Of a stretch of 64,000 bases of DNA, positions 548 through 50,363 are shown one piece after another. This DNA comes from Fictibacillus arsenicus (lineage in GTDB: Bacteria; Bacillota; Bacilli; Bacillales; Fictibacillaceae). Location of the stretch: positions 3,472,001 to 3,536,000 of the forward strand of contig NZ_CP016761.1 in the NCBI RefSeq assembly GCF_001642935.1, written 5' to 3'. The notes beneath the pieces were generated by a model, which was given only the letters and a program-made list of their open reading frames with translations, did not search any database and was not told the origin of the DNA. Position 1 is the first letter of the stretch. Every line of letters begins with the position of its first letter. A program made the position numbers and the translations under genes.

Positions 548-690
548 TTTACGGTACGTGTTCTTGTATTTATTACACGTTCGCTCAAAATAGTTGACCT
601 ACGCTCAAACACTCTGACTTTCGCTCAAAAATCTTGAGTACCGCTCAAAATACCTTACTACCGCTCAAAAACTCATTTTTACGCTCAAAA
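548..690 (+). repeat. six-unit CGCTCAAA array, copy 1
   Basis: The head TTTACGGTACGTG starts near 548 and contains the inverted pair ACGTGT/ACACGT. CGCTCAAA then follows at 582, 602, 622, 642, 662 and 682, spaced exactly 20 bp. No plausible protein is encoded. This array and the minus-strand terminator at 741-775 fill the gap between the ArgH-like gene and the DJ-1/PfpI gene. It belongs to a family of eight arrays in the window. Confidence 0.9.
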
Positions 691-740
691 TATAGTTTAG
701 CAGCAAAATTTATTCATTCCTGTTAGGTAAAACAGGTTAT

Positions 741-775
741 AAAAACCCAAAAGATGAATACCTTCACCTCTTGGG
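741..775 (-). terminator. rho-independent terminator of the DJ-1/PfpI gene
   Basis: On the minus strand CCCAAGAG pairs with CTTTTGGG (arms 768-775 and 746-753, one G-T pair) and is followed by a run of T. It lies just past the stop codon of the gene ending at 787. Confidence 0.75.
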
Positions 776-786
776 CATCTTTTTAC

Positions 787-1311
787 TTATTTCGCTTCTA
801 AAACCGCAATAAACTCTCTCATATAATCCGGCAAATCAGGCGGACGGCGGCTTGAAACGAGGTGACCGTCAACTACTACCGGCTCATCGATCCACTCGGA
901 ACCTGCATTCTCCATATCATCCTTGATTCCAGGTGTGCTCGTTACTTTTTTACCGTTTAACACTTTTGCAGAGATTAGCACCCAGCCGGCATGGCAGATC
1001 TGCCCGATAGGCTTCTTTTCTTGTTCCATGTGTTGAACCATTTCAAGAACTTCAGGAAAACGGCGCAGCTTGTCCGGTGCCCAGCCGCCTGGGACGAGGA
1101 TTGCATCATAATCGGCAGCATTCACATCACCGAACGCGAAATCCGCTTCAGCAGGTACACCATATTTTCCGATGTACGTTTCCCCTGCCTTTTCACCAGC
1201 AAGTTCCACAATAGCACCTTCTTCACGCAACCGAAGAATAGGATACCATAACTCCAGATCCTCGAAATCATGATGAACAAGGCTGATTACTTTTTTACCT
1301 TTTAAACGCAT
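787..1311 (-). CDS. DJ-1/PfpI family protein (class I glutamine amidotransferase-like)
   Basis: A protein of 174 residues starting MRLKGKKVISL. The nucleophile elbow QICHAGWVL and the upstream LVPGGWAPDKLR are typical of the PfpI/YfkM/YraA branch of the DJ-1 superfamily, whose members act as cysteine proteases, deglycases or stress proteins. The start at 1311 is preferred over the upstream ATG at 1329, because GGAGGTG lies 9 bases before 1311 and inside the longer version. It is cytoplasmic with no signal peptide, and appears to be a single-gene unit with its own terminator. The enzymatic activity cannot be told from sequence. Confidence 0.85.
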   Translation of the reverse strand: MRLKGKKVISLVHHDFEDLELWYPILRLREEGAIVELAGEKAGETYIGKYGVPAEADFAFGDVNAADYDAILVPGGWAPDKLRRFPEVLEMVQHMEQEKKPIGQICHAGWVLISAKVLNGKKVTSTPGIKDDMENAGSEWIDEPVVVDGHLVSSRRPPDLPDYMREFIAVLEAK

Positions 1312-1429
1312 GTTTAACATCACCTCCACTACCTATATTTCCTATTCAGCGTAACATTAATCTTTATTTGGTTGATAGTGTGATGGTAGCATATGTATAA
1401 ACTAATTTATAAAAAGTGGAGGTTAAAAA

Positions 1430-1516
1430 GTGAACGGGAGAAAAATAGCAGGTATCGTTTCATTCTTCGTGGCTTTCATAGCATCATTTTTAATTGTACA
1501 GTGGATATTGTCATAG
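1430..1516 (+). CDS. 28-aa predicted single-span membrane peptide
   Basis: A GTG-started frame of 28 codons (MNGRKIAGIVSFF... ending QWILS): a short basic start followed by about 20 hydrophobic residues, so one membrane span is expected. Support comes from a good ribosome site (GGAGG, 7 bases upstream) and a strong terminator beginning 5 bases after the stop, giving a complete small transcription unit. No known family was recognised; a membrane-embedded regulatory or stress peptide is possible but unproven. Confidence 0.6.
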   Translation: MNGRKIAGIVSFFVAFIASFLIVQWILS

Positions 1517-1520
1517 TAAA

Positions 1521-1546
1521 ACCCGGAGATTTTCTTCCGGGTTTTA
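1521..1546 (+). terminator. terminator of the 28-aa peptide gene
   Basis: ACCCGGA and TCCGGGT form a 7-bp stem with a short loop, followed by TTTT. It starts immediately after the TAG at 1514-1516. Confidence 0.8.
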
Positions 1547-1616
1547 TTGTTTCGTATGTGATTGTAAGACCCGGTTTAAGGGGACATTTATGAAGTTTGA
1601 AGGATTTCACGTGGGG

Positions 1617-1910
1617 TTAGTTTTGTTGTTTCAACTCGAAGATTTCGCGATCGTGTTCTGCAATCTTAAAATCATAATACTTTAAATCGCTTTTTCGAAC
1701 CATATTTTCTTCGATGTTTGTTACTCTTTCTTCGATGTTTGTTACTCTTTCTTCGATGTTTGTTACTCTTTCTTCTATGTTGGTTAATCTTTCTTCAATG
1801 TTTGCTACTCTTACTTTTAAATCTGCAACATCAGCTGTTAGCTCCAAAACGCTTTGTTGTGTTTGCTGAGTTATTTCTAAAATCTTTTGTATCATTTCTT
1901 TTTCGCTCAT
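1617..1910 (-). CDS. small heptad-repeat coiled-coil protein
   Basis: About 97 residues starting MSEKEMIQK. The start at 1910 is chosen because GGAGGTG lies 6-7 bases upstream; the ATG at 1919 overlaps that site. The middle is a run of near-identical heptads (IEERVTN repeated), encoded by 21-bp tandem DNA repeats between about 1709 and 1800. A long parallel coiled coil is expected. It resembles the gene at 59817 in build and size but with a different heptad. No catalytic motif and no signal peptide. Function unknown. Confidence 0.75.
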   Translation of the reverse strand: MSEKEMIQKILEITQQTQQSVLELTADVADLKVRVANIEERLTNIEERVTNIEERVTNIEERVTNIEENMVRKSDLKYYDFKIAEHDREIFELKQQN

Positions 1911-2326
1911 TATATACACCTCCTTTGTATCATTATATCAAAACGGCTTCCTAATTACGTTAATATTATTAAACAAATGTTTCAATTAGCTGCGCAGAAT
2001 CGCTATTATCTCCCTGACATCTTTCTTAATAATTTCCAAATTCTCTAAAATATTTTCTGCTATTTTAATCATTTAATCTATTTTTTCCATTAATATATTT
2101 CCTCCAATCTAAATGTTTTAGCAACTCACTCTTGTTATTCTTTCACTCCGTTAAAAACCACACCATCCTTGAAGTGGTGTCAATGAGAAATGAAAGAATA
2201 AGTCTGCTTTCTTCCATTTGAAGCGCTAGTTTGTTACTATTTCTAATATATTTCTTTTTTCAAAAATTAATAAAGTTTACTATTATTAAGGTTTCCTAGA
2301 GTACAGCATAAGGAAGTGTACACATT
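1911..2326. other. AT-rich intergenic region with a possible decayed small ORF
   Basis: On the minus strand a GGAGG site precedes a 5-codon frame (MEKID, stop) and then an ATG at 2072 opening 28 codons to 1986 (begins MIKIAENILENLE). This looks like a remnant or a very small amphipathic peptide and is not called as a gene. A 6-bp hairpin (ACACCA/TGGTGT, 2159-2180) with T-rich flanking on the minus strand is also present. The ribosome site of the MFS gene (AAGGAAG) is at the right end. Nothing else was recognised. Confidence 0.3.
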
Positions 2327-3526
2327 ATGGCAGTTTGGAAGCGAAATTTATGGGTGCTATGGGTCGGCGTCTTCTTTACTTCAGCCAGCTACTCCATGGT
2401 CGTTCCTTTTTTACCTCTTTTTCTCCTTCAGATTGGTGTTCATGACCACACCGAGATCTGGTCAGGACTTATTTTCAGCTCAGCCTTTTTTGCAGGTGCC
2501 ATAGCTTCTCCTTATTGGGGGATGATGGCCGATCGATACGGAAGAAAGCCGATGATAATCCGCGCAGGTGCCTTCCTGTTCATTATCTACACATTAACTG
2601 CATTTGTTACGAACGCTTATCAGCTACTCGCACTGCGTATAGCGCAAGGATTACTGACGGGCTACATTCCTGGTGCGATTGCACTGATTGGAACAAACAC
2701 ACCGAAAAAGAATGTCGGCTACGCGCTTGCGATGATTTCCTCTGCGGGTGCATCAGGCGGAATTATGGGTCCGCTGCTTGGTGGCGGGCTAGCTGAATTG
2801 TTCGGGAACCGCTGGGCTTTTGCGAGTGGAGGTTTCTTATCTCTCATCTCGACTCTTTTAGTTATCTTCTGGGTAACCGAAGAAAAATTTACACCGAGCA
2901 AAGAAAAAGGATCTGTTTTAAAAGACATTCGTGTCGCAGCAGCCAACAAACCCTTTATGAACGTGCTGTTTTTATCGATCATCACCGCTCTCTCTATCTT
3001 AACGATCGAACCCGTTCTTCCCCTTCATATATTAACAATCAGTGGTTCATCTGATAATACGGCACTTTTAGCGGGCATCGTCTTTTCATTACCGGGTATT
3101 GCAAGCATTATTTTTGCCGCTTATTGGGGACGCATGTCTGATAAAATCGGGTTTCAAACTGTATTGATGATCGGCTTATTGGGTGGCGGAATCGGAACCA
3201 TTGCACAGGCTTGGTTTGATGGTGTTTGGGGCTTTTCTTCAATACGTTTTCTATACGGAATTTTCTTTTGCGGCGTTTTCCCAGCCTTAAATGGGTTGGT
3301 TGTTCAAACCACACCGGACGAATTCAGAGGACGAGCTTTCGGACTTCAGCAAACTGCCACTCAAATTGGAGCCATGCTCGGACCGCTAGTTGGGGGAGTG
3401 ATCGGCGGATTCTTCCCCGTCGAGATCGTTTTCGTCGTAACAGGTGTAATGCTGCTAATCGCGATGTGGTACGCGTATTCATTTAAAGACGAAACCAAGG
3501 AGTTAAAAAAAGCCGTCGGCAGTTAA
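2327..3526 (+). CDS. MFS drug exporter, DHA1 type
   Basis: 399 residues with about 12 hydrophobic spans. The loop 2-3 signature of the major facilitator superfamily is present (GMMADRYGRKP, about residues 64-74), and the equivalent second-half loop reads GRMSDKIG. The glycine/proline-rich GGIMGPLLGG in helix 5 is the antiporter motif C of drug:proton exporters. The build is MdtG/YfmO-like, so export of a toxic compound by proton exchange is likely; the substrate is unknown. It is followed after 45 bases by a small gene on the same strand, with no terminator between them, so co-transcription is possible. Confidence 0.85.
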   Translation: MAVWKRNLWVLWVGVFFTSASYSMVVPFLPLFLLQIGVHDHTEIWSGLIFSSAFFAGAIASPYWGMMADRYGRKPMIIRAGAFLFIIYTLTAFVTNAYQLLALRIAQGLLTGYIPGAIALIGTNTPKKNVGYALAMISSAGASGGIMGPLLGGGLAELFGNRWAFASGGFLSLISTLLVIFWVTEEKFTPSKEKGSVLKDIRVAAANKPFMNVLFLSIITALSILTIEPVLPLHILTISGSSDNTALLAGIVFSLPGIASIIFAAYWGRMSDKIGFQTVLMIGLLGGGIGTIAQAWFDGVWGFSSIRFLYGIFFCGVFPALNGLVVQTTPDEFRGRAFGLQQTATQIGAMLGPLVGGVIGGFFPVEIVFVVTGVMLLIAMWYAYSFKDETKELKKAVGS

Positions 3527-3571
3527 CTTGTGTTATAAATAATACAAACCTTTTGTTAGGAGTGAGATTCC

Positions 3572-3799
3572 ATGGGGAAATGCACGATTGATCATACGTT
3601 GGAAGATGTAAAACAAAAGCTTGTTGACCAAGCTGCATTCATGCCAAAAAATCTGGTGCGTGAAGTGGAAGGTTCATTAACAGAAAAAGCAGATCAGGAG
3701 TTTTTGAACGAAGTCTTTCATCTATTAAAAAAGTATGATTTGGCTGATGAAACAGAAAGAGAAGAACGGAACGAGAAACTAAATGATTTAGTAAAATAG
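3572..3799 (+). CDS. 75-aa hypothetical acidic protein
   Basis: A small soluble, highly charged, mostly helical protein (MGKCTIDHTLEDVKQKL at the start) with a good ribosome site (TAGGAGTG). The family was not recognised. Its natural terminator originally began directly after the stop, but the loop of that hairpin is now occupied by an IS3-family element, so the 3' end of its transcript is probably changed. Confidence 0.65.
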   Translation: MGKCTIDHTLEDVKQKLVDQAAFMPKNLVREVEGSLTEKADQEFLNEVFHLLKKYDLADETEREERNEKLNDLVK

Positions 3800-3800
3800 A

Positions 3801-3810
3801 AAAACCCGGG
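3801..3810. terminator. left arm of a terminator split by the insertion element
   Basis: AAAACCCGGG at 3801-3810 pairs with CCGGGTTTTT at 5108-5117. If the element (3816-5102) and one copy of the AAT duplication are removed, the two arms rejoin as a near-perfect hairpin with a loop of about 8 bases and T/A runs on both sides. That is a bidirectional terminator for the convergent genes ending at 3799 and 5123. Confidence 0.8.
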
Positions 3811-3855
3811 CTAATTAGACTGACCTAGTCATTTGAGACAATAATAAAACACCCT

Positions 3856-4608
3856 TTAGGCTGCCATACTACCAAATTCAATTGGGGTGTGGTAGCCTAA
3901 TTTTTCTTGGATACGTTCTTCATTATAATACTTCATGTATTGATCTACTTGTTCCCTGATTTTATCCATCGACATAGAATTAAACTTCACATACTGAAAT
4001 CCTTCAGATTTTAGATTTGAATGGAAGGACTCGATAACCGCATTATCCCAACAATTTCCCCTTCTGGACATACTGCTAATCAATTTTCTTTCGTTTACTA
4101 AATGTTGATACGTATAGGATGTATACACACTTCCTTGATCAGAGTGAATAATGACCCCTTTGGGGTTCCCTCGTGATTCCAAAGCTGCTTTTAACGTATC
4201 TGCCACAAGAGGGGTTTGTTGATGGGTATAGAGCTTGTAAGCCACAATTTGATTATTAAATAAATCCATTATGGTTGATAAGTACAATGTGGTTGAACCA
4301 TACTGAATATACGTTATATCTGTTACCCATTTTTGATTAGGCAAAGTTGCTGAAAAATCTCGCTGTAAAATGTTTGGTGCGACAATGATTGATTCCCCTT
4401 GAGATTTCCACTTGCGCTTTGGTTTTACACGGCACTGTAGATGATGCTTTTGCATAATACGTTGAACAGAATTTCGATTCAAACTAATTTGATGTCGACG
4501 CTTTAGTAAATTCTTAATTTTACGATGACCATAACGATAGTTAGTCTGTTCACAAAGGGAGATAATGGCCTGCTCTGATTTAGACAGTTCATCAGATGGA
4601 GCAGACAA
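3856..4608 (-). CDS. IS3-family transposase OrfB (catalytic part, DDE)
   Basis: The DDE integrase core is complete: the first Asp in WVTDITYIQYG, the second in VIIHSDQGSVY, and Glu in NCWDNAVIESFHSNLKSE. An HTH_21-like region (YRYGHRKIKNLLKR) precedes it. The frame begins here at a TTG but stays open upstream to 4707, adding residues such as VVLRLVKRLRKKYT. It therefore has no proper start of its own and is made as an OrfAB fusion by -1 slippage on AAAAAG at 4707-4712, just before the orfA stop. It cuts and joins the element ends. Confidence 0.93.
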   Translation of the reverse strand: MSAPSDELSKSEQAIISLCEQTNYRYGHRKIKNLLKRRHQISLNRNSVQRIMQKHHLQCRVKPKRKWKSQGESIIVAPNILQRDFSATLPNQKWVTDITYIQYGSTTLYLSTIMDLFNNQIVAYKLYTHQQTPLVADTLKAALESRGNPKGVIIHSDQGSVYTSYTYQHLVNERKLISSMSRRGNCWDNAVIESFHSNLKSEGFQYVKFNSMSMDKIREQVDQYMKYYNEERIQEKLGYHTPIEFGSMAA

Positions 4609-4700
4609 CCAACGATAGTATGTGGATCTTGGAACGTTTAAAGCGCATAGAACAGCCGTAACTGTGTACTTTTTTCGTAATCTTTTTACTAAACGGAGAA

Positions 4701-5018
4701 CTACTTCTTTTTCAGCTCCTTTTCGATCTCCAAATACTTTTTTAAAATCTCATTCTCCTGTTTATAGTGATTGAATTGACGTTCTTTCTTTTCCTCTTCA
4801 CTAGCTGAATCAGGCCCTTGACCATAAGAGTATTGCTTGCCTATTGGCTGATTAAACCGATGTACTTGATTTTCCCGATACCATTTCATCCATGTTTTTA
4901 TTTGAGAAACATTTTTAATGTCATACTTATTCATGATTTCTTCATTCGTAAATTGGCCACTCATTTTATCCTTAACTACAGCCCACTTTGTTTCTTTTGA
5001 ATAAACGTTTTTGCCCAC
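4701..5018 (-). CDS. IS3-family transposase OrfA (DNA-binding part)
   Basis: 105 residues with an N-terminal helix-turn-helix (YSKETKWAVVKDKMSG...TNEEIMNKYDI) and a C-terminal leucine-zipper-like coiled coil ending EIEKELKKK. It binds the element ends and, alone, usually limits transposition in this family. The last codons contain the slippery AAAAAG followed closely by the TAG stop, which lets some ribosomes shift -1 into orfB. It starts just inside the right inverted repeat, as usual. Confidence 0.92.
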   Translation of the reverse strand: MGKNVYSKETKWAVVKDKMSGQFTNEEIMNKYDIKNVSQIKTWMKWYRENQVHRFNQPIGKQYSYGQGPDSASEEEKKERQFNHYKQENEILKKYLEIEKELKKK

Positions 5019-5122
5019 GCAAAAACACCTCCGATTATCACTTTTAATAAGTGTATCATTTCGAAGGTGTTTTATTGTGTCCCATTTATCTAGGTTAGTC
5101 TAAATGTCCGGGTTTTTACTTA

Positions 5123-5767
5123 TTATTCTTTATTAGGCTCTACCGTCTCAAGCATCGCCCACAAACTAGGCTCCACGCCTTCCATTTCTGCTTTCGATGG
5201 AATATGGAGCGATAAGTAAAGCAGCTCCCCTTCCACTTCCTTCACTAAATACATAACCACATCGTACTCTTCACTTACTCCCTTCACGAAGAACTTTGCA
5301 TCATGAAAATAAGAGAAGTAAATGTCGGTAGCGGGTAAATCATTGGCTTTACCGGTTTGTTCCTCTGCACTTTTCAGCGACGACTCTTTTAAGCTTTCAA
5401 GATCTGTTGATGGATCCAATTTTTCAATCGTGGCATACAAGGTTGGATCGTTCGCGAATGCGATCCTACCTGTCGTCTCGTTCTCTTTTTCAAAATTGTA
5501 AAGGTCCAGCATGTAAAAATGATACCCGTTAGCGCTTTGCTGGAGTTCAGCTGGCCGCTGCTCTTTCATCCCCTCAATTTCTACTTCGATATTTTTAGTC
5601 GGTGGAAGGTTTGACTCTGGCTGATTTTCCTTTTCTTTATCGTTTTCTTTTTCTTTTACTTCTGTAGGGGGTTTTTGAGGTTTTACTGTTTCTTTTTCAC
5701 CGCTAGAACATGCAGTTAAAGTGAAAGCAAGTGTAAACAAGATTCCAACACTAAGGACTCTCTTCAT
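5123..5767 (-). CDS. hypothetical lipoprotein
   Basis: 214 residues with a classic lipoprotein signal: basic MKRV, a hydrophobic stretch and the lipobox LTAC with the lipidated Cys at 20. A Lys/Glu/Pro-rich low-complexity linker (about residues 25-55) leads to a globular domain of about 150 residues. The start at 5767 is used because AGGGG lies 8 bases upstream; the codon at 5770 is TTG. Probably anchored on the outer face of the membrane. No recognised domain. Its terminator (right arm 5108-5117) has been separated from its partner arm by the insertion element. Confidence 0.7.
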   Translation of the reverse strand: MKRVLSVGILFTLAFTLTACSSGEKETVKPQKPPTEVKEKENDKEKENQPESNLPPTKNIEVEIEGMKEQRPAELQQSANGYHFYMLDLYNFEKENETTGRIAFANDPTLYATIEKLDPSTDLESLKESSLKSAEEQTGKANDLPATDIYFSYFHDAKFFVKGVSEEYDVVMYLVKEVEGELLYLSLHIPSKAEMEGVEPSLWAMLETVEPNKE

Positions 5768-5943
5768 CAAATCATCCCCTTTTCACCTGTTTCCTTCTTT
5801 TTCAATGCAATTGCAATAAAATCCTCTAAAAAACATGACTTTATACGTTATGAAACACCCTGAATGTTATGCCTGAAAAGTTTTATTAGTCTATTTTTTT
5901 GGTACTCAAATCATTAAAAGACAAAGATTTGCATTAACTTGGT

Positions 5944-6023
5944 GAATCGTTTCGATTTATCGTTGACTCTAAAAATGAAAGCGCTTATAATTTTTATTAA
6001 CAGAATTATCGAAACGTTTCGAT
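5944..6023 (+). promoter_or_regulatory. GH3 promoter with cre box and LacI-type operator
   Basis: The -35 TTGACT (5963-5968) and -10 TATAAT (5986-5991) are separated by 17 bp, a near-consensus sigma-A promoter. A cre-like box TGAAAGCGCTTATA (5975-5988) overlaps the spacer and -10. The perfect palindrome ATCGAAACGTTTCGAT (6008-6023) lies just downstream of the expected start point. A partial copy (AATCGTTTCGATT) lies at about 5945-5957. Catabolite repression by CcpA plus repression by a LacI-family protein is inferred; the same palindrome core occurs upstream of the LacI gene at 28613. Confidence 0.8.
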
Positions 6024-6083
6024 TGTTCATCACGTACATACATAATAAAAAACAAACTCTCAAAAATCTGGAGGTACTTATTC

Positions 6084-8252: not shown

Positions 8253-8264
8253 AATAACGAAAAT

Positions 8265-8291
8265 GACTGTTCAGTTGAGCAGTCTTTTTTT
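8265..8291 (+). terminator. terminator of the GH3 gene
   Basis: GACTGTTCA pairs with TGAGCAGTC (one G-T pair), followed by a run of T. It starts 13 bases after the GH3 stop codon. Confidence 0.85.
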
Positions 8292-8300
8292 ATTGAAGTT

Positions 8301-8443
8301 TTTACGGTACGTGTTCTTTTATTTATTACACGTTCACCCCAATTCACTGCGTCTTCACCCCGAAAAGGCATCGTTTCACCCCAACACATTGAGTCTGCGC
8401 CCCAAAAGAAGCACGTTTCACCCACAAACCGCCCTTTCGCAAA
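8301..8443 (+). repeat. six-unit array, copy 2, variant TTCACCCC motif
   Basis: The head TTTACGGTACGTG and the ACGTGT/ACACGT inverted pair are the same as in the other arrays, but the repeated unit is TTCACCCC (8333, 8354, 8375), then degenerate forms at 8396 (TGCGCCCC), 8417 (TTCACCCA) and about 8436 (TTCGCAAA). Spacing is 21 bp, and there are again six units. It lies between two convergent terminators. Confidence 0.85.
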
Positions 8444-8461
8444 TACAAGCCTTCTTCTCAC

Positions 8462-8507
8462 AAAAAAACTGACCTCAAAATGCACTCGGAGTGCTTTCGA
8501 GATCAGT
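8462..8507 (-). terminator. terminator of the GH35 gene
   Basis: Read on the minus strand, a long two-part stem (ACTGATCTC with GAGGTCAGT, and GCACTC with GAGTGC inside) is followed by a run of T. It lies 10 bases beyond the stop at 8518. Confidence 0.85.
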
Positions 8508-12303: not shown

Positions 12304-12455
12304 TTTTACGGTACGTGTTTCTTATATTTATTACACGTTCACTCAGACTCATTAAGGTTTCGCTCAAAAACGCCGAGTTACGCTCAAAATCCTCCCGCTA
12401 CGCTCAAACTACCCTTCGTTTCGCTCAGAATTACCCTTTTTTCGCTCAAAGTACC
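12304..12455 (+). repeat. six-unit CGCTCAAA array, copy 3
   Basis: The head TTTTACGGTACGTGT begins at 12304. Units are at 12340 (CACTCAGA), 12361, 12381, 12401, 12422 (CGCTCAGA) and 12443, spaced 20-21 bp. The spacers are nearly the same as in copy 4 at 31966. On either side are fragments resembling the ends of the 130-bp stem-rich repeat (about 12190-12245 and 12487-12503). The gap 12150-12975 holds only repeats. Confidence 0.9.
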
Positions 12456-31965: not shown

Positions 31966-32115
31966 TTTTACGGTACGTGTTCTTATATTTATTACACGTT
32001 CGCTCAGACTCATTGAGGTTTCGCTCAAAAACGCCGGGTTACGCTCAAAATCTTCCCGCTACGCTCAAACTACCTTTAGTTTCGCTCAAAATATCCCTTT
32101 TTCGCTCAAACTACC
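31966..32115 (+). repeat. six-unit CGCTCAAA array, copy 4
   Basis: The head TTTTACGGTACGTGTTC begins at 31966. Units are at 32001 (CGCTCAGA), 32022, 32042, 32062, 32083 and 32103; spacing 20-21 bp. The text between units is almost that of copy 3 (for example AACGCCGGGTTA against AACGCCGAGTTA), so the two share recent ancestry. It separates the oxidoreductase gene from the propeller gene. Confidence 0.9.
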
Positions 32116-37228: not shown

Positions 37229-37378
37229 TTTTACGGTACGTGTTCTTTTATTTTGTTACACGTTCGCTCAAAATGTCCAACCTACGCTCAGAATAGACCC
37301 TGTTTCGCTCAAAAACTCTCACCTACGCTCAACTTATACCTATCTACGCCCAAACTGCCCCTGTTTTCGCTCAACTAA
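37229..37378 (+). repeat. six-unit CGCTCAAA array, copy 5
   Basis: The head TTTTACGGTACGTGTTC begins at 37229. Units are at 37265, 37285 (CGCTCAGA), 37306, 37326 (CGCTCAAC), 37347 (CGCCCAAA) and 37368 (CGCTCAAC); spacing 20-21 bp. It lies between the kinase start and the GH130 terminator. Confidence 0.9.
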
Positions 37379-42462: not shown

Positions 42463-42509
42463 CAGAATATCCCCCTTGTTAATAGTGATGCCCAGTATTT
42501 GTTTTACGA

Positions 42510-42541
42510 ACCTAAAATGGCAGCGCTATCATTTTAGGTTT
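42510..42541. promoter_or_regulatory. inverted repeat enclosing a cre box, leader of the mannoside operon
   Basis: AACCTAAAATG and CATTTTAGGTT are perfect 11-bp inverted arms around GCAGCGCTAT. The centre, read as TGGCAGCGCTATCA (42518-42531), fits the cre consensus TGNNANCGNTNNCA exactly. It lies about 50 bases upstream of the binding-protein start, so it can act as a DNA roadblock for CcpA and as an RNA hairpin in the leader. Confidence 0.75.
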
Positions 42542-42560
42542 TAAAAAAGTGTGACTTTGA

Positions 42561-42625
42561 TTACAATGTGTAAATATGTCATTTTCGTAATTGTTTTTGT
42601 AACTTTATGTAATGTGATTATTACA
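42561..42625. promoter_or_regulatory. candidate operators between divergent SBP and LacI genes
   Basis: TTACAATGTGTAA (42561-42573) and TGTAATGTGATTATTACA (42608-42625) are inverted repeats of the same TGTAA/TTACA half-site, with more half-sites between and after (TTGTAACTT, TTGTAATG). They fit binding by the LacI-type protein encoded divergently at 42811, although the core differs from the usual AACGTT. Confidence 0.55.
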
Positions 42626-42810
42626 CGTATTTGTAATGTTGTCAATCGGTTTATCAGACAATTTTATAAGCATAACTTCCTTAGTTATTTCTTGGCTCAA
42701 AGGCTATTTTAAAATTTATCTTTTGTTTTTATTTACTTAATCTACCTTTTCGTTTATATTTAATTTGTAACGTGACAAAATTCTTTTTTTTTGGAAGGTT
42801 TGTTTAAATA

Positions 42811-43824: not shown

Positions 43825-43830
43825 AATGAA

Positions 43831-43855
43831 GCCCCTTGGTTGCAAGGGGCTTTCG
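43831..43855 (+). terminator. terminator of the divergent LacI gene
   Basis: GCCCCTTG and CAAGGGGC form a strong stem followed by TTTCGTT; it starts 6 bases after the stop codon. Confidence 0.8.
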
Positions 43856-43871
43856 TTATGGAAATTTGCAG

Positions 43872-44017
43872 TTTTACGGTACGTGTTCTTTTATTTGTTA
43901 CACCTACGCTCAAAAATAGCTCGCTACGCTAAGAATCATCGATCTTCGCTCAGACTTCCCTGCTTTTCGCTCAAACCACCTTTAGTTTCGCTCAAAATCA
44001 TCGAGTTACGCTCAAGA
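43872..44017 (+). repeat. six-unit CGCTCAAA array, copy 6
   Basis: The head TTTTACGGTACGTGTTC begins at 43872. Units are at 43907, 43927 (CGCTAAGA), 43947 (CGCTCAGA), 43968, 43989 and 44009 (CGCTCAAG); spacing 20-21 bp. It directly precedes the NERD gene and shares spacers with copy 7 on its other side. Confidence 0.9.
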
Positions 44018-44099
44018 TTATCCTTAAAACAGTGAAACTAAAATCCGGTGAAGGACTCTGATGCCATATAAGGGAATTTTTATCATGAGGAGTGATGTT

Positions 44100-45068
44100 A
44101 TGATAGTAAAAGAAGCAGCAGAATCTATTAAAATTAAGAAACTAAGACTTTTACATAAGCGTTTTTCCCCTGACCATCCTGCAGAGAAGGAAATTGAAGG
44201 TGAACTTATGAGGAGCATTGCAGGGTATAAAGGTGAAAAATCCCTCGATTTTCATCTGGATTTGCTCCCAAAAGAGGAAACTCACATTTTCCACGATCTC
44301 CGTCTCCCGTTTGGCTCCAGTCATTTCCAAATCGATATCCTTATCTTAACACCATCGTTTTTTCTCATTATCGAGGTGAAACACATTTCAGGTACTCTAA
44401 TATTTGACCAAGAATTTCACCAACTTATCCGTACTTATAAAGATACCGAAGAAACATTTTCGGACCCAATCTCGCAGCTATACCGGCAAACCCACCTGTT
44501 CAAAGAATGGTTAAATCTCCATAAGTTTCCCATACTTCCAATCGAATCTCTTGTGATCATCAGCAACCCCAACTCCAAAATTATGTCGATTCCTAAAAAT
44601 ATGAATATCTCCAAATTTGTAACACATAGCGCTAACCTTCTAGCAAGATTTCACGCCTATCAAAAAAATTATCCAATAGAAATAATCACTAAAAAAGACA
44701 TCAAAAAATTATCTCGTCTTCTGCTCAAACACCATAATCAAACCGACCAAGATCTTTTTAAAAAATTTAATATATCTGCGGATGACTTGATTAAAGGTGT
44801 ATCCTGTCCAGAATGTTTTAAAATTCCTATGATTAGAGCAAGGAGGAAGTGGTTTTGTCCTAATTGTGGTCATTATTGCAGCAATGCACATATTGAAACA
44901 TTAAAGGAATATGCATTATTAATCAGTCCTACTCTACCAATTCATGATTGCTGCGACTTTCTTCAGATTTCCTCCCGCCATCTCGCAAAACACCTTTTGA
45001 ATGATTTAAATATTTCAGCCACGAAAATAGGAAAGTACAAGGTTTTCCACTTGAATGAGTTAAATTAG
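44100..45068 (+). CDS. NERD-domain protein with C-terminal zinc ribbon
   Basis: 322 residues. The nuclease-related domain (NERD) covers about 40-150: EGELMRSIAGYKGEKSL, then the catalytic-type pattern QIDILILTPSFFLIIEVKHISG with the Asp and Glu-x-Lys expected of a restriction-like fold. A zinc ribbon (CPEC...CPNCG) lies near 255-280, followed by a small helical domain. The start at 44100 is used because GAGGAG lies 7 bases upstream. Base composition is more AT-rich than its neighbours and direct arrays bracket it, hinting at transfer. Possibly a DNA-processing or defence-related nuclease; unproven. Confidence 0.85.
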   Translation: MIVKEAAESIKIKKLRLLHKRFSPDHPAEKEIEGELMRSIAGYKGEKSLDFHLDLLPKEETHIFHDLRLPFGSSHFQIDILILTPSFFLIIEVKHISGTLIFDQEFHQLIRTYKDTEETFSDPISQLYRQTHLFKEWLNLHKFPILPIESLVIISNPNSKIMSIPKNMNISKFVTHSANLLARFHAYQKNYPIEIITKKDIKKLSRLLLKHHNQTDQDLFKKFNISADDLIKGVSCPECFKIPMIRARRKWFCPNCGHYCSNAHIETLKEYALLISPTLPIHDCCDFLQISSRHLAKHLLNDLNISATKIGKYKVFHLNELN

Positions 45069-45070
45069 CT

Positions 45071-45217
45071 TTTTTCACGGTACGTGTTCTTTATTCTGTT
45101 ACACGTTCGCTCAAAAAAAGCTCGCTACGCTCAGAATTACCGATCTTCGCTCAGAATCCCTGTTTTACGCTCAAACCACCTCTAGTTTCGCTCAAATTCA
45201 TCGAGTTACGCTCAAGT
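45071..45217 (+). repeat. six-unit CGCTCAAA array, copy 7
   Basis: The head TTTTTCACGGTACGTGTTC starts at 45071. Units are at 45108, 45128 (CGCTCAGA), 45148 (CGCTCAGA), 45168, 45189 and 45209 (CGCTCAAG). The spacers closely match copy 6, 1.2 kb upstream, in the same orientation. Confidence 0.9.
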
Positions 45218-45230
45218 CTTTCGGTTACAC

Positions 45231-45263
45231 AAAAAAACAACCGGAATCCCTCCATTCCGGTTG
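45231..45263 (-). terminator. terminator of manA
   Basis: CAACCGGAAT and ATTCCGGTTG form a perfect 10-bp stem with a 6-base loop; on the minus strand a run of seven T follows. Confidence 0.92.
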
Positions 45264-45274
45264 CTCCTTCTCTA

Positions 45275-46240
45275 TTAAATCGTCGGATGCGACACGATAA
45301 ACTTCGCATCACCGCTCATTCCGAATTTTTTCACTGTCGATGGCACGATAAAGTGGTCGCCTTTTTTAAATGCGGAAGAAGATTGATCATCAATCTTCAA
45401 CTCTCCTTCTCCCTCCAACACACTTACTAAAAAATACGAAGGATTTTCGACCGCCGCCACTGAACCTTCTAAGTTCCAGTGATACACGGTAAAATAGTTC
45501 TCTTTGATCAGCTTCTCGATCTTTAAATCCTCATTCGCTGATAAAACAGGTTCAAAGTCAGCGTCCTGATGCGGAATCATCGCGACTTCAATCGATTTTT
45601 CGATATGAAGCTCACGCGTATTACCTGCATCGTCAAGACGATCATAATCGTAAACACGATACGTAATATCAGAGCTTTGCTGCGTCTCCAAAATCATTGT
45701 GCCCGCACCGATCGCATGGATCGTTCCGTTCGGTACATACACAAAATCACCTGGCTTAATCGCCACTTTACGAAGAAGCTTATTCCAGCGGTTATCTGCT
45801 ACCATCTCTTCAAACTGAAGCTTAGATCCAGCATGATGACCATACACCAATTCTGCATCTGGCTCGCAATCGATCACGTACCAGCATTCTGTTTTTCCGA
45901 ACGCCTCGCCTTCCACTTCACGCGCGTAGGAATCATCCGGGTGCACCTGTACGGAAAGATCCGTCTTTGCATCTAAAATTTTTACAAGCAATGGGAAGTC
46001 TTCTCCAACTTGATCAGCAAAGAGTTCACGATGCTCGTCCCACACTTGGTCAAGCGTCTTTCCTTTTAACGGGCCGTTTACGACTTCACTCGGTCCGTTT
46101 GAATGAGCGGAAATTCCCCAGCACTCTCCGGTTGTTTTAGATGGAATATCGTAGCCGAACTCTTCACGTAGCTTTGTTCCGCCCCAGATTCGGTCTTTGA
46201 ATACAGGTTTTAAGAAAATCGGTTCATTATACACTTTCAC
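45275..46240 (-). CDS. manA: mannose-6-phosphate isomerase, class I
   Basis: 321 residues of the type I phosphomannose isomerase cupin. The N-terminal FKDRIWGG, zinc-site residues in VQVHPDDSYARE and ECWYVIDCEP, and the PNGTIHAIGAGTMILE strand with the catalytic region are all present. It turns mannose 6-phosphate into fructose 6-phosphate, the natural exit for mannose freed by the GH130 enzyme and phosphorylated by the ROK kinase. Start is GTG at 46240 with a GGGAG site. Single gene with own terminator. AAACGTTTG near 46280 is a weak operator-like sequence. Confidence 0.95.
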   Translation of the reverse strand: MKVYNEPIFLKPVFKDRIWGGTKLREEFGYDIPSKTTGECWGISAHSNGPSEVVNGPLKGKTLDQVWDEHRELFADQVGEDFPLLVKILDAKTDLSVQVHPDDSYAREVEGEAFGKTECWYVIDCEPDAELVYGHHAGSKLQFEEMVADNRWNKLLRKVAIKPGDFVYVPNGTIHAIGAGTMILETQQSSDITYRVYDYDRLDDAGNTRELHIEKSIEVAMIPHQDADFEPVLSANEDLKIEKLIKENYFTVYHWNLEGSVAAVENPSYFLVSVLEGEGELKIDDQSSSAFKKGDHFIVPSTVKKFGMSGDAKFIVSHPTI

Positions 46241-46359
46241 AACACTCCCTATGTGGGTTTTCTACTCCCCATTTTAAACGTTTGTTTAAAGATAAACCAC
46301 CTGTATAGAAAATTCGAGACTAGAAATAATTACTATCGGGAAACAATTGATAAGAAGGT

Positions 46360-46387
46360 TTGATTTTAAAGCGTTTTCCTTTATACT
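46360..46387 (+). promoter_or_regulatory. probable promoter of the pxpB operon
   Basis: TTGATT (46360-46365) and TATACT (46382-46387) are separated by 16 bp, about 60 bases upstream of the pxpB start. An AAAGCGTTTTCC stretch in the spacer only loosely resembles cre. Confidence 0.5.
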
Positions 46388-46446
46388 AGACCTTTATAAA
46401 TATACAAATATTCTGATTAATTTTACATAAATAGACAGGGGAGAAA

Positions 46447-47154
46447 ATGATGGAGTTTAAATTGCAGCCTTTAGGTGACAACAGTGTAATTATTGAGCTC
46501 GGCGAAGACATCAGCCGGAACATTCAGCAAAAAGTGAATAAAGTCTCCTCTTTTTTAGATGAACAGTCCTTTGACTGGGTAATTGAATACGTTCCAGGGT
46601 TCACGACGGTCGCCGTTTTTTATGATCCTATGAAAATCAAAACGGACACACTTCCTTATGAGCAGGTTTGTGAAGAATTAAGTTCATATTTGGAAAAACT
46701 AGACGTGGAAGAAGGGGCTGAACCACGTGTGGTTGAAATCCCTGTTTGCTATGGCGGAGAATTCGGACCTGACTTGGAAGAAGTAGCCGAACGAAACGAA
46801 CTTACATCAGAAGAAGTGATCGACATTCACTCAAACGGAGAATACATCGTTTACATGATCGGGTTTGCCCCAGGATTCCCTTATATCGGCGGGATGGATG
46901 AACGGATTTCTGCACCTAGACGGAAGAACCCGCGATTGAAGATTCCAGCTGGATCTGTTGGAATTGCAGGCAAACAAACAGGTGTATATCCAATTGAAAC
47001 ACCTGGCGGATGGCAGCTGATCGGTAAAACACCTCGTAAACTTTTTCTCCCGGAAGGCGAAACACCAAGTCTTCTACAAGCGGGAGATCAAATAAAATTT
47101 GTACCGATTACAGAAGAAGAGTTTCAGAAATGGGAGGAGAACGAGAATGATTAA
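46447..47154 (+). CDS. pxpB: 5-oxoprolinase subunit PxpB (KipI homologue)
   Basis: 235 residues, carboxyltransferase domain C/D type. Motifs PGFTTVAVFYD, IGFAPGFPYIGGMDERISAPRR and GIAGKQTGVYPIETPGGWQLIGKTP are those of KipI/PxpB. With PxpA and PxpC it opens 5-oxoproline to glutamate using ATP; in B. subtilis KipI also inhibits kinase KinA. ATG ATG at the start leaves the first codon open (46447 or 46450). It overlaps pxpC by 8 bases. Confidence 0.95.
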   Translation: MMEFKLQPLGDNSVIIELGEDISRNIQQKVNKVSSFLDEQSFDWVIEYVPGFTTVAVFYDPMKIKTDTLPYEQVCEELSSYLEKLDVEEGAEPRVVEIPVCYGGEFGPDLEEVAERNELTSEEVIDIHSNGEYIVYMIGFAPGFPYIGGMDERISAPRRKNPRLKIPAGSVGIAGKQTGVYPIETPGGWQLIGKTPRKLFLPEGETPSLLQAGDQIKFVPITEEEFQKWEENEND

Positions 47155-48160
47155 GATTACGAAGCCGGGTCTCCTTACAAGTGTTCAAGATTTAGGCCGC
47201 TATGGTTATCAAAAATACGGTGTGATCGCGAGTGGCGTGATGGATGCGACAGCCCATCGGATAGCAAACCTTTTAGTTGGCAATGATGAGAATGAAGCGA
47301 CGTTGGAGCTCACTTTATTAGGTCCTGACATGGAATTTACGGAAGACACGCTGATTTCAATCTGCGGCGGAAACCTCTCCCCTTCAGTTGATGGGAAGCC
47401 AGTTAAACTATGGCGTTCTGTTTTAGTGAAAGCCGGAAGCAAACTTAAGTTCGGAGGCTGCAAAACAGGCTGCCGTGCTTATTTAGCGGTCGCGGGTGGT
47501 TTCGATCTGCCTGAGGTCATGGACAGCAAATCAACTTACATAAGGGCAGGAATTGGCGGATTTAACGGAAAACCGCTTCAAGCGGATGATGAACTAACAC
47601 TCGGAGAACCTAGTGATTTTGCGACCCAAATTACGAAAGTGTTATCAGCTGAATTAGACGGGCAAAAGTTTGCGGAGATGCAGTGGACGATTGCATCAGA
47701 ATTCACAGCAACACCAGCTTCAAAACCGAAAGTACGCGTGATGAAAGGCAGACAGTATGATTGGTTTACGCAAGACAGCCAGATGAAGCTTTTTACCGAA
47801 TCGTTTGAAGTGACATCGCAGTCTGATCGAATGGGCTACCGCATGAAAGGGCCTGAACTTTTACTCGAAAAAGAACAAGAAATGCTATCAGAAGCTGTGA
47901 ACTCCGGTACGATTCAAGTGCCATCAGAAGGCAATCCGATTGTGCTGCTGGCGGACCGGCAAACGACTGGCGGCTATCCGAAAATCGGGCAGATCGCAAC
48001 GGTCGATCTTCCAATCATGGCGCAGCTGAAGCCTGGCGACAAAGTACAATTCACCGAGGTCTCACATGAAGTCGCTCAACAGTTATATTTAGACCGAGAA
48101 AAACAAATACACCAGTTGAAACAAGGAATCTCACTAAAAATAAAACAAGAATCGAAGTAA
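47147..48160 (+). CDS. pxpC: 5-oxoprolinase subunit PxpC (KipA homologue)
   Basis: 337 residues starting MIKITKPGLLTSVQDLGRYGYQ, the classic N terminus of the biotin-dependent carboxylase-like PxpC family; SDRMGYRMKGPEL and LADRQTTGGYPKIGQIATVDLP follow. The start at 47147 with GGAGG upstream replaces the longer frame beginning at 47099. It overlaps pxpB and is followed 15 bases later by the NRAMP-like gene. Confidence 0.95.
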   Translation: MIKITKPGLLTSVQDLGRYGYQKYGVIASGVMDATAHRIANLLVGNDENEATLELTLLGPDMEFTEDTLISICGGNLSPSVDGKPVKLWRSVLVKAGSKLKFGGCKTGCRAYLAVAGGFDLPEVMDSKSTYIRAGIGGFNGKPLQADDELTLGEPSDFATQITKVLSAELDGQKFAEMQWTIASEFTATPASKPKVRVMKGRQYDWFTQDSQMKLFTESFEVTSQSDRMGYRMKGPELLLEKEQEMLSEAVNSGTIQVPSEGNPIVLLADRQTTGGYPKIGQIATVDLPIMAQLKPGDKVQFTEVSHEVAQQLYLDREKQIHQLKQGISLKIKQESK

Positions 48161-48175
48161 TCTAGGAGGAAGAGT

Positions 48176-49366
48176 ATGAAGAAAGAATCGAAAGCTAGTA
48201 TACTGCTAGGCGCCGCGTTTTTGATGGCGACATCCGCCATCGGACCTGGATTTTTAACACAAACGACACACTTCACGTCCATTCTCGCAGCAAGTTTTGG
48301 TTTTGTTATTTTAACTTCCATCATTATTGATATTGGTGCGCAGATGAACGTATGGCGAATTATCGCGGTTTCCGAAAAAAGAGCACAAGACATCGCAAAC
48401 GATGTTCTGCCTGGCTTAGGATTTTTTCTTGCCGCGTTGATCGTGATGGGCGGACTAGCCTTTAACATCGGTAACATCGCTGGGGCTGGACTCGGGGTGA
48501 ATGTTCTGTTTGGTGTTTCCCCTAAAATGGGTGCATTGCTCAGTGGAGTTATCGCCATTTTAGTATTCGTTGTCCGTGAAGCTGGAAAAGCGATGGACCG
48601 TTTTACGCAAGTTGCTGGTTTTATCATGATCGCGTTAACCGTTTATGTCATGTTTACCGCTCAGCCTCCTGTTGGTGAAGCGGTTGTAAAGACGTTTGTT
48701 CCTGACACGATCGATGTACTTGCAATCGTAACTCTAGTTGGGGGAACAGTCGGAGGGTACATCACATTTGCCGGTGCCCACCGTTTGCTTGATGCAGGAA
48801 TCAAAGGAAAAGAGAATTTAGGAGAAGTCACAAGAAGTTCTGTTTCAGCAATCGGAATCGCATCTATCATGCGTATCTTCTTGTTCTTAGCCGCTCTAGG
48901 TGTCGTGGCGCAAGGATTGACGCTTGATCCAGCTAACCCGCCGGCTTCCGTGTTTAAATTAGCTGCCGGTAATGTTGGTTATAAAATTTTCGGTGTCGTA
49001 ATGTGGGCAGCTGCCATCACTTCTGTTGTCGGTGCAGCTTACACGTCTGTTTCATTTATCCGTACATTTAGCCCAACTTTGGAAAAGTACCATAAGTGGA
49101 TTATCATCGGATTTATCGCTGTTTCAACACTGGTTTTCACGATTATTGGACAGCCCGTTAAGATCCTAATTTTAGTTGGATCATTAAACGGATTAATTTT
49201 ACCGATTTCATTAGGTGTGATGCTGATTGCAGCTTACAAACCAAAGATTGTCGGTGACTATAAACATCCAATGTGGATGACGATTTTCGGTGTGCTGATC
49301 GTTGTGATCATGGCAATCATGAGTGTTTATTCACTGTACACAGGACTGCCTAAGTTATTTGCATAA
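48176..49366 (+). CDS. NRAMP-family transporter (YcsG-like)
   Basis: 396 residues, about 11 spans. The start ATSAIGPGFLTQTTHFT resembles the NRAMP helix-1 region (in classical NRAMP, D-P-G-N), but here the metal-binding DPGN is SAIGPGF, as in the YcsG branch, so metal transport is doubtful. The gene is always near 5-oxoprolinase genes in Bacillus, and an amino-acid or 5-oxoproline-related cargo is possible (inference). AGGAGG site, operon with pxpBC. Confidence 0.8.
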   Translation: MKKESKASILLGAAFLMATSAIGPGFLTQTTHFTSILAASFGFVILTSIIIDIGAQMNVWRIIAVSEKRAQDIANDVLPGLGFFLAALIVMGGLAFNIGNIAGAGLGVNVLFGVSPKMGALLSGVIAILVFVVREAGKAMDRFTQVAGFIMIALTVYVMFTAQPPVGEAVVKTFVPDTIDVLAIVTLVGGTVGGYITFAGAHRLLDAGIKGKENLGEVTRSSVSAIGIASIMRIFLFLAALGVVAQGLTLDPANPPASVFKLAAGNVGYKIFGVVMWAAAITSVVGAAYTSVSFIRTFSPTLEKYHKWIIIGFIAVSTLVFTIIGQPVKILILVGSLNGLILPISLGVMLIAAYKPKIVGDYKHPMWMTIFGVLIVVIMAIMSVYSLYTGLPKLFA

Positions 49367-49384
49367 AATCGAGGGGGAGCTTTC

Positions 49385-50176
49385 ATGAATGCACTAGACC
49401 GTATGAATCCTGCTGATGCGCGTGATATGATCAGACGCGGAGAATGGACAAAGCCTACAAGCGGACTCGCTAACGGGTACACACAAGGAAACTTAGTGGT
49501 ATTGCCAAAAGAACTGGCGTTTGAGTTCCTTCTGTTTTGCCAGCGGAACCCGAAACCATGTCCTGTGCTGTATGTGACGGAGCCAGGTTCAGCTGTCCCT
49601 GCGCTTGTCGCTCCTGATGCAGATTTGCGAGTGGATATTCCGAAGTATCGTGTTTATCGTCGAGGTGAGCTTATTGAGGAAAAAACCGATATTACTGACC
49701 TTTGGGATGACGGGATGGTTGGCTTTTTGCTTGGCTGCAGCTTCACGTTTGAGCATGCCTTGATGAATAATGGAATTCCGGTACGCCACATCGACCGCGG
49801 ATGTAACGTTCCGATGTTTAAAACGAACATCGAATGTGTGAAAGCCGGCCGTTTCGAAGGGCCGATGGTCGTGAGCATGCGTCCGCTTCCTGAAAAAGAC
49901 GTAGTGAGAGCCGTTCAAGTCACAAGCCGCTTCCCTTCTGTTCACGGCGCACCCGTTCATATCGGTAATCCCGAGAGTATCGGGATCTATGACTTGTATC
50001 AACCCGATTTCGGTGATCCCGTTCAGATCCATGAAGGCGAAGTTCCCGTGTTTTGGGCATGCGGCGTAACTCCTCAGGCAGTTGCGATGCATGTGAAGCC
50101 GGAAATCATGATCACCCACGCTCCAGGACATATGTTTATTACCGATGTACGGGATGAGAAGTTTGGGGTTTTATAA
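49385..50176 (+). CDS. putative hydro-lyase, YcsI/DUF1445 family
   Basis: 263 residues. Conserved family motifs: RGEWTKPTSGLANGYTQGNLVVLP near the start, FLLGCSFTFEHALM, RNPKPCPVLYVTEPG, and FWACGVTPQAVAM...THAPGHMFITD near the end, a pattern shared with D-glutamate cyclase-like enzymes. It is part of the 5-oxoproline cluster, and mammalian members turn D-glutamate into 5-oxo-D-proline, so work on D-glutamate/5-oxoproline is a fair guess. Last gene of the operon; strong terminator follows. Confidence 0.88.
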   Translation: MNALDRMNPADARDMIRRGEWTKPTSGLANGYTQGNLVVLPKELAFEFLLFCQRNPKPCPVLYVTEPGSAVPALVAPDADLRVDIPKYRVYRRGELIEEKTDITDLWDDGMVGFLLGCSFTFEHALMNNGIPVRHIDRGCNVPMFKTNIECVKAGRFEGPMVVSMRPLPEKDVVRAVQVTSRFPSVHGAPVHIGNPESIGIYDLYQPDFGDPVQIHEGEVPVFWACGVTPQAVAMHVKPEIMITHAPGHMFITDVRDEKFGVL

Positions 50177-50185
50177 AATAGGACG

Positions 50186-50214
50186 AAGGTGTCTCTTTGT
50201 GGAGGCACCTTTTT
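50186..50214 (+). terminator. terminator of the pxpBC-ycsGI operon
   Basis: AAGGTGTCTC and GAGGCACCTT pair (one G-T) and a run of T follows; 9 bases after the last stop codon. Confidence 0.88.
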
Positions 50215-50217
50215 ATG

Positions 50218-50363
50218 TTTGAGCGAAAAGTTGGTCAATTTGAGCGGTACTAGGAGTTTTTGAGCGAAACTCAAGGTAGTTTGAGCGTAGGTGAAGAATT
50301 CTGAGCGTAGCGAGCTTTTTTTGAGCGAACGTGTAACAGATTAAAAGAACACGTACCGTAAAA
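50218..50363 (-). repeat. six-unit CGCTCAAA array, copy 8 (reverse orientation)
   Basis: Seen on the plus strand as TTTGAGCG at 50218, 50239, 50259, 50280, 50300 (TCTGAGCG) and 50320, then the head reversed, ending in ACACGTACCGTAAAA at 50363. Spacing 20-21 bp. It is the only copy in the opposite orientation and sits between two convergent terminators. Its first two units and spacer equal those of copy 7. Confidence 0.9.

Follow-up and report, generated by a model that had tools for sequence, protein, structure and literature searches.

Eight arrays in the 64-kb window

The window, i.e. the whole stretch of 64,000 nucleotides that was analysed, contains eight arrays, all composed of a 35-bp head followed by six motifs ~20-21 bp apart. 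Heads were matched, with up to 3 mismatches, at positions 547, 8300, 12304, 31966, 37229, 43872 and 45073 of the forward strand and at 50363 of the reverse strand, compared to 0.17 matches expected, and none of 100 shuffled sequences reached eight. All the arrays claimed in a sequence-only reading of this DNA are thus present, although some of the coordinates given there need shifting by 1-2 bp. The predominant motif of that reading, CGCTCAAA, was found in seven arrays, whereas the remaining array carries CACCCC with a degenerate sixth unit.

Array 1 (547..689, forward strand) has its head at 547-581 and six CGCTCAAA units at 582, 602, 622, 642, 662 and 682. Array 2 (8300..8445, forward strand) lies between convergent genes and is the exception, as its usual head is followed by five CACCC/CGCCC units, CACCCCAA, CACCCCGA, CACCCCAA, CGCCCCAA and CACCCACA, at 8335, 8356, 8377, 8398 and 8419 in steps of 21 bp, and by a degenerate sixth unit, CGCAAATA, at 8438, 19 bp after the fifth. 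Arrays 3 to 7 are also on the forward strand, each with a head and six units. In array 3 (12304..12450), which has an orthologue in the relative G007, the first unit is CACTCAGA and the others are of the CGCTCAAA type. Orthologues of array 4 (31966..32110) have five units in G007 and six in G002, and those of array 5 (site A, 37229..37375) belong to the CACGC class in G014 and have two units in G002. Array 6 (site B, 43872..44016) is flanked by two forward-strand genes and array 7 (site C, 45073..45216) by convergent genes. Array 8 (site D, 50218..50363), with its head and six units on the reverse strand, occupies a convergent gap, and this site was traced through 16 relatives.

Mechanical open frames of 88-111 aa overlap arrays 2, 4 and 5. 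Nevertheless, a coding repeat, already discounted in the earlier reading, is unlikely, because steps of 20 bp break the reading frame. Two other chains in the window are coding heptad repeats and were hence dropped as arrays. No Rfam covariance model matched at gathering score within the window.

A search of the whole genome and of its relatives yielded about 64 copies in the Fictibacillus source genome, and arrays were found in 17 of the 18 genomes of this genus (8-88 each). The model also matched in 25 further genera of Bacillales; all 20 loci inspected, from 13 other genera, were headless and had a period of 20-21 bp. Among 398 genomes sampled across the phylum, the matches were confined to the order. 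Array 4 gave no match in plasmids and phages, and no exact match to the head was found in viral contigs.

Period, unit number and turnover of the motif

The period of 20-21 bp was borne out by the motif starts, since 675 of the 698 intervals in chains of headed arrays measured 20 or 21 bp, with a chaining method that allows only steps of 19-22 bp, and, independently of that method, by a free scan of lags 14-47 in the window and in stretches of two relatives, in which chains of at least four units appeared only at 19-22 and 40-43 bp. When 940 kb of DNA, mostly unselected for arrays, were scanned for periods of 12-50 bp, 10 out of 10 noncoding arrays had a period of 20-21, with several unrelated motifs among them; the figure is 8 out of 8 after removal of the stretch G012:C10:300001-320000, which contains two previously known arrays. 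Repeats within open frames had periods of 15-48 bp in the same scan. The spacing varies little between arrays, whereas the unit number is not fixed at the exactly six that had been claimed. Six is the commonest number, seen in 100 of 159 unique arrays with a head and in 38 of 62 in the source genome, and five-unit and two-unit orthologues occur among the relatives.

The unit has the non-palindromic consensus gTTtCRCNCAAA. Inside headed arrays, likeness was 0.50-0.96 at motif positions -3 to +7 and about 0.3 in the spacers, so that the whole unit including its spacer is not repeated, as it would be in a VNTR. Some headless arrays are near-perfect tandems. Between orthologues of the same class, identity was 0.944 for the head, 0.915 for the motif and 0.752 for the spacer (10 of 15 pairs, the other five, with motif identity of 0.60 or less, being left out).

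The 35-bp head of Fictibacillus carries an inverted repeat, ACGTGT-N13-ACACGT. Of 100 heads that had no more than two changes in either arm and were followed by four or more units, 86 were identical in both arms; among the other 14, six had G-U changes only, five were broken, two had A-C changes only and one had both. One compensated stem, ACGCAT/ATGCGT, was seen outside this count, at site D of G003. Convincing covariation for an RNA hairpin in the head was not found.

In the gap of G007 that is orthologous to array 2, a headless TTTGGTGCATAGA array was found in its place. Between species, the class of motif switches at one orthologous site while location and geometry are kept. Similarly, a head or an array is retained at site D in 13 of the 16 relatives despite a change of class. 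The polarity of this site is not fixed, because the array found there in G002 has the opposite orientation, and part of the turnover at site D may be due to inversion or re-insertion.

These arrays might be repeats that are selfish or close to neutral, spread by carriers and conversion, growing by slippage in steps of 20-21 bp and doing no job for the host. Such an origin would fit the gain and loss of units and the inverted array of G002, as well as some dozen copies that form a subfamily with common spacers, several of them flanked by portions of a larger mobile repeat (16 copies aligned). In several genomes, arrays B and C of the same genome also look alike by eye. However, the head and the motif are more conserved than the spacers in orthologues, the sites endure while their sequence turns over, and a single period across unrelated motifs is not predicted by neutral slippage, which makes such a family unlikely.

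Gene context, replication strand and RNA-level readings

The gene context was derived from a crude frame caller and not from an annotation, for 66 loci, some of them incomplete, after four of 70 model hits (733971, 860554, 963038 and 2878857) had been dropped. Gene 3' ends were favoured, with 27 convergent versus 4 divergent sites, and the tail-side gene was antisense to the array at 54 of the 66 loci. Orientation relative to the replication origin was biased as well, 52 of the 66 arrays being on one replication strand, and the bias was also seen where gene orientation cannot account for it (24 of 31, p 0.003). In the window, the three arrays described as lying between convergent genes (at 8300, 45073 and 50218..50363) do so; according to a rough gene list, an array is present in three of five convergent gaps versus 4 of 43 others (p 0.018). 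Array 1 falls outside this count because the list starts no gene left of 787.

Intrinsic terminator-like hairpins were found for 24 of 33 head-side genes, where they precede the head (2 in shuffled sequences), less often for tail-side genes (20 of 49; 5 in shuffled sequences) and in 5 of 14 window gaps without an array. The hairpins owned by 24 of the 33 head-side genes argue against the array as the sole terminator of these genes.

The arrays could instead act as RNA, each serving as a Rho utilisation site whose six units would correspond to the Rho hexamer and which would stop transcription that opposes replication and is antisense to the gene on the tail side. The sequence-only reading had dismissed an RNA role, but the sense strand is rich in C and poor in G (C 0.305, G 0.151; YC density 0.176 versus 0.046 on the opposite strand), and this composition keeps Rho in play. 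The C excess and the polarity of the sense strand suit an RNA role equally well; the antisense tail-side genes also speak for Rho, and 19 of 20 arrays read from other genera have more C than G. Sense-strand folding is slightly below that of shuffled sequences (mean z +0.45, n=50), but the opposite strand likewise folds slightly less than its own shuffles (z +0.35). Four arrays of other classes (L259, L269, L267 and L263) show little or no C excess, and their polarity looks weak by eye; with C minus G at percentiles 94.6-99.5, the array windows are not unique. Moreover, neither a fixed period of 20-21 nt nor an exact motif is required by Rho. The presence of Rho does not discriminate, as it was found in 38 of 39 array carriers and in 41 of 41 other genomes.

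According to the available parts of two reports, Rho of B. subtilis favours long, unstructured, T-rich RNA with C>G, and about 80% of its sites are antisense to genes (PMC13323073, PMC12350095). These sites resemble the arrays in being C>G, U-rich, unstructured, mostly antisense and about 100-150 nt long, and differ from them in that they are described there without a fixed period, a head or a uniform motif (PMC12350095, PMC13323073). The sequence features of Rho sites (C>G, U-rich, unstructured, antisense) were found in the Fictibacillus class and are weak in the others. For the Fictibacillus class with its C-rich arrays, Rho-dependent antisense termination has to be taken seriously as an alternative, although as an account of the arrays we consider it rather doubtful.

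The strand bias and the placing at gene ends also resemble those of REP elements, and one RAYT-like gene, judged from score band and frame length, is present in all 18 Fictibacillus genomes. The arrays might accordingly be REP-like elements moved by a single-copy Y1 (RAYT-type) transposase. However, neither a head with fewer than 3 mismatches nor a CGCTC-type array was found in 23 loci around Y1 genes, the array carrier G048 (a draft genome) gave no match to Y1, and such matches are common among non-carriers. The arrays were not found to flank the RAYT gene or to track with it, and such a mover is unsupported and very improbable. A clean insertion site was not found; at site D of G006, which has no array there, the flanking DNA has diverged too far for the ends of the element to be located. 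What the Y1 loci did contain was two head-like strings with 3 mismatches and a CGAACAA chain of four units.

Known systems and proposed phased protein binding

REP/BIME-type extragenic repeats are palindromes present in many intergenic copies, at gene 3' ends and in convergent gaps, with an orientation bias. The arrays share the intergenic copies, the location and the bias, but their unit is non-palindromic, and they have a fixed period of 20-21 bp, variable spacers and class switching. The iterons of replication origins are direct repeats about two helical turns apart that are bound cooperatively. Their directly repeated motifs have the same spacing as ours, whereas here dozens of chromosomal copies occur at gene ends with a variable motif class. 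A constant motif with variable spacers is also a feature of CRISPR arrays, in contrast to which the motif is here 8-11 bp long and the spacers are 9-12 bp and drift between orthologues.

Like the arrays, the stoperators of mycobacteriophages are short and asymmetric and recur across a genome; as far as the available description goes, they are dispersed phage sites, unlike the chromosomal arrays of about six units, and they are not known to be arranged in arrays. In the large group of phages covered by the available part of one report, the sites are genome-wide, the bound repressor halts transcription elongation and specificities evolve (PMC9283540). No description of such arrays was found in the titles and abstract openings listed by searches of the open-access PMC literature, among them those of the stem-loop surveys PMC2267715 and PMC1590033, nor are they mentioned in the available part of a spaced-motif survey.

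The best reading, which we favour tentatively, is that the arrays are phased, protein-bound DNA elements acting as polar boundaries at gene 3' ends. Some six copies of one short motif, one per two helical turns, would span about 125 bp of DNA; with this spacing they would therefore face roughly the same side, and a candidate protein could bind them side by side to form one nucleoprotein patch. Units are gained and lost in steps of 20-21 bp. Neighbouring arrays seem to swap content, so that an entire array can take on another motif with geometry and place kept; the replacement itself was observed, and swapping would be its probable route. Place and polarity suggest that such a boundary would hold up transcription that opposes replication or enters the next gene in antisense direction. 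An anchoring or termination role is conceivable, and chromosome organisation might be a further one.

A phased array at the DNA level, as claimed in the sequence-only reading, agrees with the restriction of noncoding periods to 20-21, with the motif and head outlasting the spacers, and with AA/TT phasing, the power of which peaks at 10.2 bp (7.96; 7.05 at 10.4 bp versus 1.28 in shuffled sequences). The lack of an Rfam match and of convincing covariation in the head points the same way. On the other hand, no one-turn AA/TT phase dominates in 4 of 13 arrays of other motif classes, and five 20-bp intervals drift by about half a turn at 10.5 bp per turn. Furthermore, because the motif classes differ, several readers or one reader of DNA shape would be required, and a single sequence-specific binding protein is insufficient as the whole story, since the class varies from one array to the next and, at one orthologous site, even from species to species.

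The predicted bend was 89.8 in the array and 38.8 in shuffles, but the flank, at 73.8, was only little below the array, which also counts against phased binding. Together with the one-turn AA/TT phasing, the excess over shuffles might indicate that curved DNA as such is maintained at convergent ends, for gyrase or HU-type proteins. As curvature leaves the exact conservation of the motif and the strand polarity unexplained, we regard this as improbable, and curvature alone was rejected, the predicted bend exceeding that of the flank only modestly.

It is also possible, if somewhat unlikely, that Bacillales chromosomes pass on geometry rather than sequence. Whichever short motif recurs some six times, once per two helical turns, would then serve at its gene end, and the arrays would be read either by a reader of self-similar, helically phased DNA irrespective of its sequence or by fast-evolving DNA-binding proteins that co-evolve with them. 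If true, geometry that is conserved at fixed sites across many Bacillales genera, with a motif that can be exchanged, would be a new principle of bacterial non-coding DNA. The roughly 64 sites of one complete genome and the orthologous sites that differ in class offer handles for finding the reader and for asking whether gene ends are shielded from head-on or antisense transcription. Co-evolution of the arrays with their binding proteins would be reminiscent of eukaryotic satellites and the proteins that bind them.

Array copies, unit number and period

The sequence-only reading had claimed eight arrays in the window, and all of them were located, at 547, 8300, 12304, 31966, 37229, 43872 and 45073 on the forward strand and at 50218-50363 on the reverse strand. 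The head TTTTACGGTACGTGTTC occurs eight times at up to three mismatches, against 0.17 expected, and each head is followed by six motifs in steps of about 20-21 bp. Seven of the eight arrays use the motif CGCTCAAA, and in the array at 8300 five units of CACCC/CGCCC are followed by a sixth that is degenerate. Rfam gave no match for the window sequence.

A model of the eight window copies that uses sequence alone (R1) matched the complete 4,055,461-bp genome 70 times at E<=1 and 64 times at E<=1e-5. Copy numbers are 8-88 in 16 of the other 17 Fictibacillus genomes; the sole non-carrier, G001, has none by R1 and matches the window region weakly, in four short pieces at 67-77% identity. R1 matches were found in 56 of 397 genomes and 26 of 135 genera of the order sample, Fictibacillus counted in, and in the phylum sample of 398 genomes only in the F. 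arsenicus genome and one genome of the same order. Among named genomes the head pattern is confined to Fictibacillus (50 stretches). Twenty R1-matched loci from other genera (19 genomes, 13 genera; L089 scanned in part only) were read, and all were arrays of 5-27 units with mean periods of 19.9-21.0 bp in a free 12-50 bp scan. These arrays are headless, and their motif is uniform inside an array and different between genomes (TCGCTATAAAA, TCGCCAATAAA, TTCGCACA and TTTGCTCAGACTT, among others). An earlier description is possible, as the literature search that returned none of such arrays was confined to open PMC, where most subscription papers are absent.

Six units were counted in 100 of the 159 unique headed arrays. 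In headed arrays of at least five units, with steps limited to 19-22 bp, the intervals were 21 bp (n=397), 20 bp (n=278), 19 bp (n=13) and 22 bp (n=10). By class, the mean is 20.49 bp for CRCTC and 20.96 bp for CACGC and CACCC. When the window and two relatives' stretches were scanned with no preset motif, chains appeared at 19-22 and 40-43 bp only. A 12-50 bp scan was also applied to a 940-kb set (other carrier genera, 27 stretches; four Fictibacillus, 16; G032, of the same family, 4), from which three of ten stretches of genome G371, picked because of matches, were left out. All 10 noncoding arrays had a period of 20-21 bp, as had 8/8 without stretch G012:C10:300001-320000, which contained two places known beforehand as R1 matches from the order sample. 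The 540 kb of other carrier genera yielded a single noncoding array, so arrays are sparse there. No array was found in 200 kb of G039, and G032 had two arrays of other motifs despite zero R1 matches, so the geometry is shared more widely than the motif.

Eight repeats in open frames of at least 80 aa in the 940-kb set had periods of 15, 20, 21, 21, 37, 42, 45 and 48 bp. Window frames 1617-1919 (reverse strand, 100 aa) and 59808-60155 (forward strand, 115 aa) contain 21-bp coding repeats with a heptad coiled-coil pattern. Genome G000 has, at 3051706-3052055 (L082), a separate class of unchanged period, in which 17 or more copies of the CGATCATAAATTCCGTATGG type form a near-perfect 20-bp tandem.

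Anatomy and turnover between relatives

The unit consensus is gTTtCRCNCAAA, followed by a free spacer; likeness within arrays is 0.50-0.96 at motif positions and about 0.3 in spacers. Positions +1 and +3, more alike within arrays than between them, are the class signature. AA/TT steps show a 10.2-bp phasing, and in 9 of 13 arrays of other classes the one-turn AA/TT signal is stronger than the two-turn one. Of 100 heads, 86 have an identical inverted repeat. At the site of the 50218-50363 array (site D) in G003 (L180), both arms are altered together, ACGCAT/ATGCGT replacing ACGTGT/ACACGT.

Site D, the position after gene 49385-50176, holds a head or an array in 13 of 16 relatives; neither was found there in G017, G009 and G006. 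Judged by eye, the array is of the CGCTC class in G014, G007 and G011, of the CACGC/CACCC class in G002 and of the CACCG(G/A/C)T class in G012, G008, G010, G005 and G015; by the same inspection, G016 has a headless GTTGATATC array, and those of G013, G003 and G004 are degenerate or short. The G002 array (L168) lies between two convergent genes and is inverted relative to those of the window, G014 and G007, so that the class change there is not a simple in-place replacement. At sites A, B and C (37229, 43872 and 45073), CACGC arrays in G014 correspond to CGCTC arrays of equal orientation in the window, and the 8300 site of G007 holds a headless TTTGGTGCATAGA array. Same-class orthologues (10 of 15 pairs kept) show identities of 0.944 in the head, 0.915 in the motif and 0.752 in the spacer. 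Neighbouring units are near-identical in G011 and G016, which suggests recent unit duplication. Arrays B and C appear alike by eye inside each of the window, G013 and G014, as would be expected from exchange between them.

Place, polarity and a possible action of Rho

Convergent genes flank 27 of the 66 copies; another 27 are antisense to two tandem genes, 8 are in sense and 4 stand between divergent genes. The array tail points toward the opposing gene's 3' end in 54. The tail-side gene also opposes at 70 of the 91 other Fictibacillus loci where its direction was readable; for headless arrays in other genera the figure is 13 of 19. With dnaA at 4.040 Mb of the F. arsenicus genome, the head-to-tail direction is toward the origin in 52/66 copies (p 2.8e-6) and in 24/31 convergent and divergent sites (p 0.003), p-values that are optimistic because many copies have common ancestry. 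The bias is stable for an assumed terminus anywhere in 1.8-2.25 Mb.

Beyond the observed geometry, conservation, class turnover, place and polarity, we propose that a protein would read the array at the DNA level and that the array would serve gene ends as a polar boundary. The leading rival explanation has Rho acting at the arrays. Their sense strand is rich in C, poor in G, weakly folded and for the most part antisense, and is alike in composition, folding and place to the B. subtilis Rho sites, to which PMC12350095 and PMC13323073 ascribe these same features. Rho would account for the tolerated class changes and for the polarity but leaves the 20-21 bp period unexplained, and the other array classes are poorer in C. 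Rho is present in 38 of 39 carriers tested (the one lacking a match, G256, is a 500-contig draft) and in 41/41 other genomes, so its presence is not discriminating. Rho and an array-reading protein may act jointly.

Neighbouring mobile repeats and transposase

A RAYT-like Y1 transposase gene is found once per genome in all 18 Fictibacillus genomes (L203 1459-2019 and equivalents), apparently as a vertically kept single copy, with no good head and no CGCTC-type array around it. An array subfamily with common spacers (72111, 820349, 2822609, 3790838 and others in the F. arsenicus genome; L026, L018, L024, L019) lies within portions of a bigger GC-rich repeat, GGAAAGCGAGC...GGAGCGGAAATCAAC, which is its likely carrier. 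In three places recognised by eye, a mobile repeat whose ends resemble GGCTGTTTTC...GAAAACAGCC splits the head at the TTTATTTA (or TTTATCTA) stretch, namely ~962814-963037 (L069) and 2270706 (L081) of the F. arsenicus genome and site B of G017 (L170). At ~962814-963037 the flanks, by eye, suggest an 8-bp target duplication, TTTATTTA.
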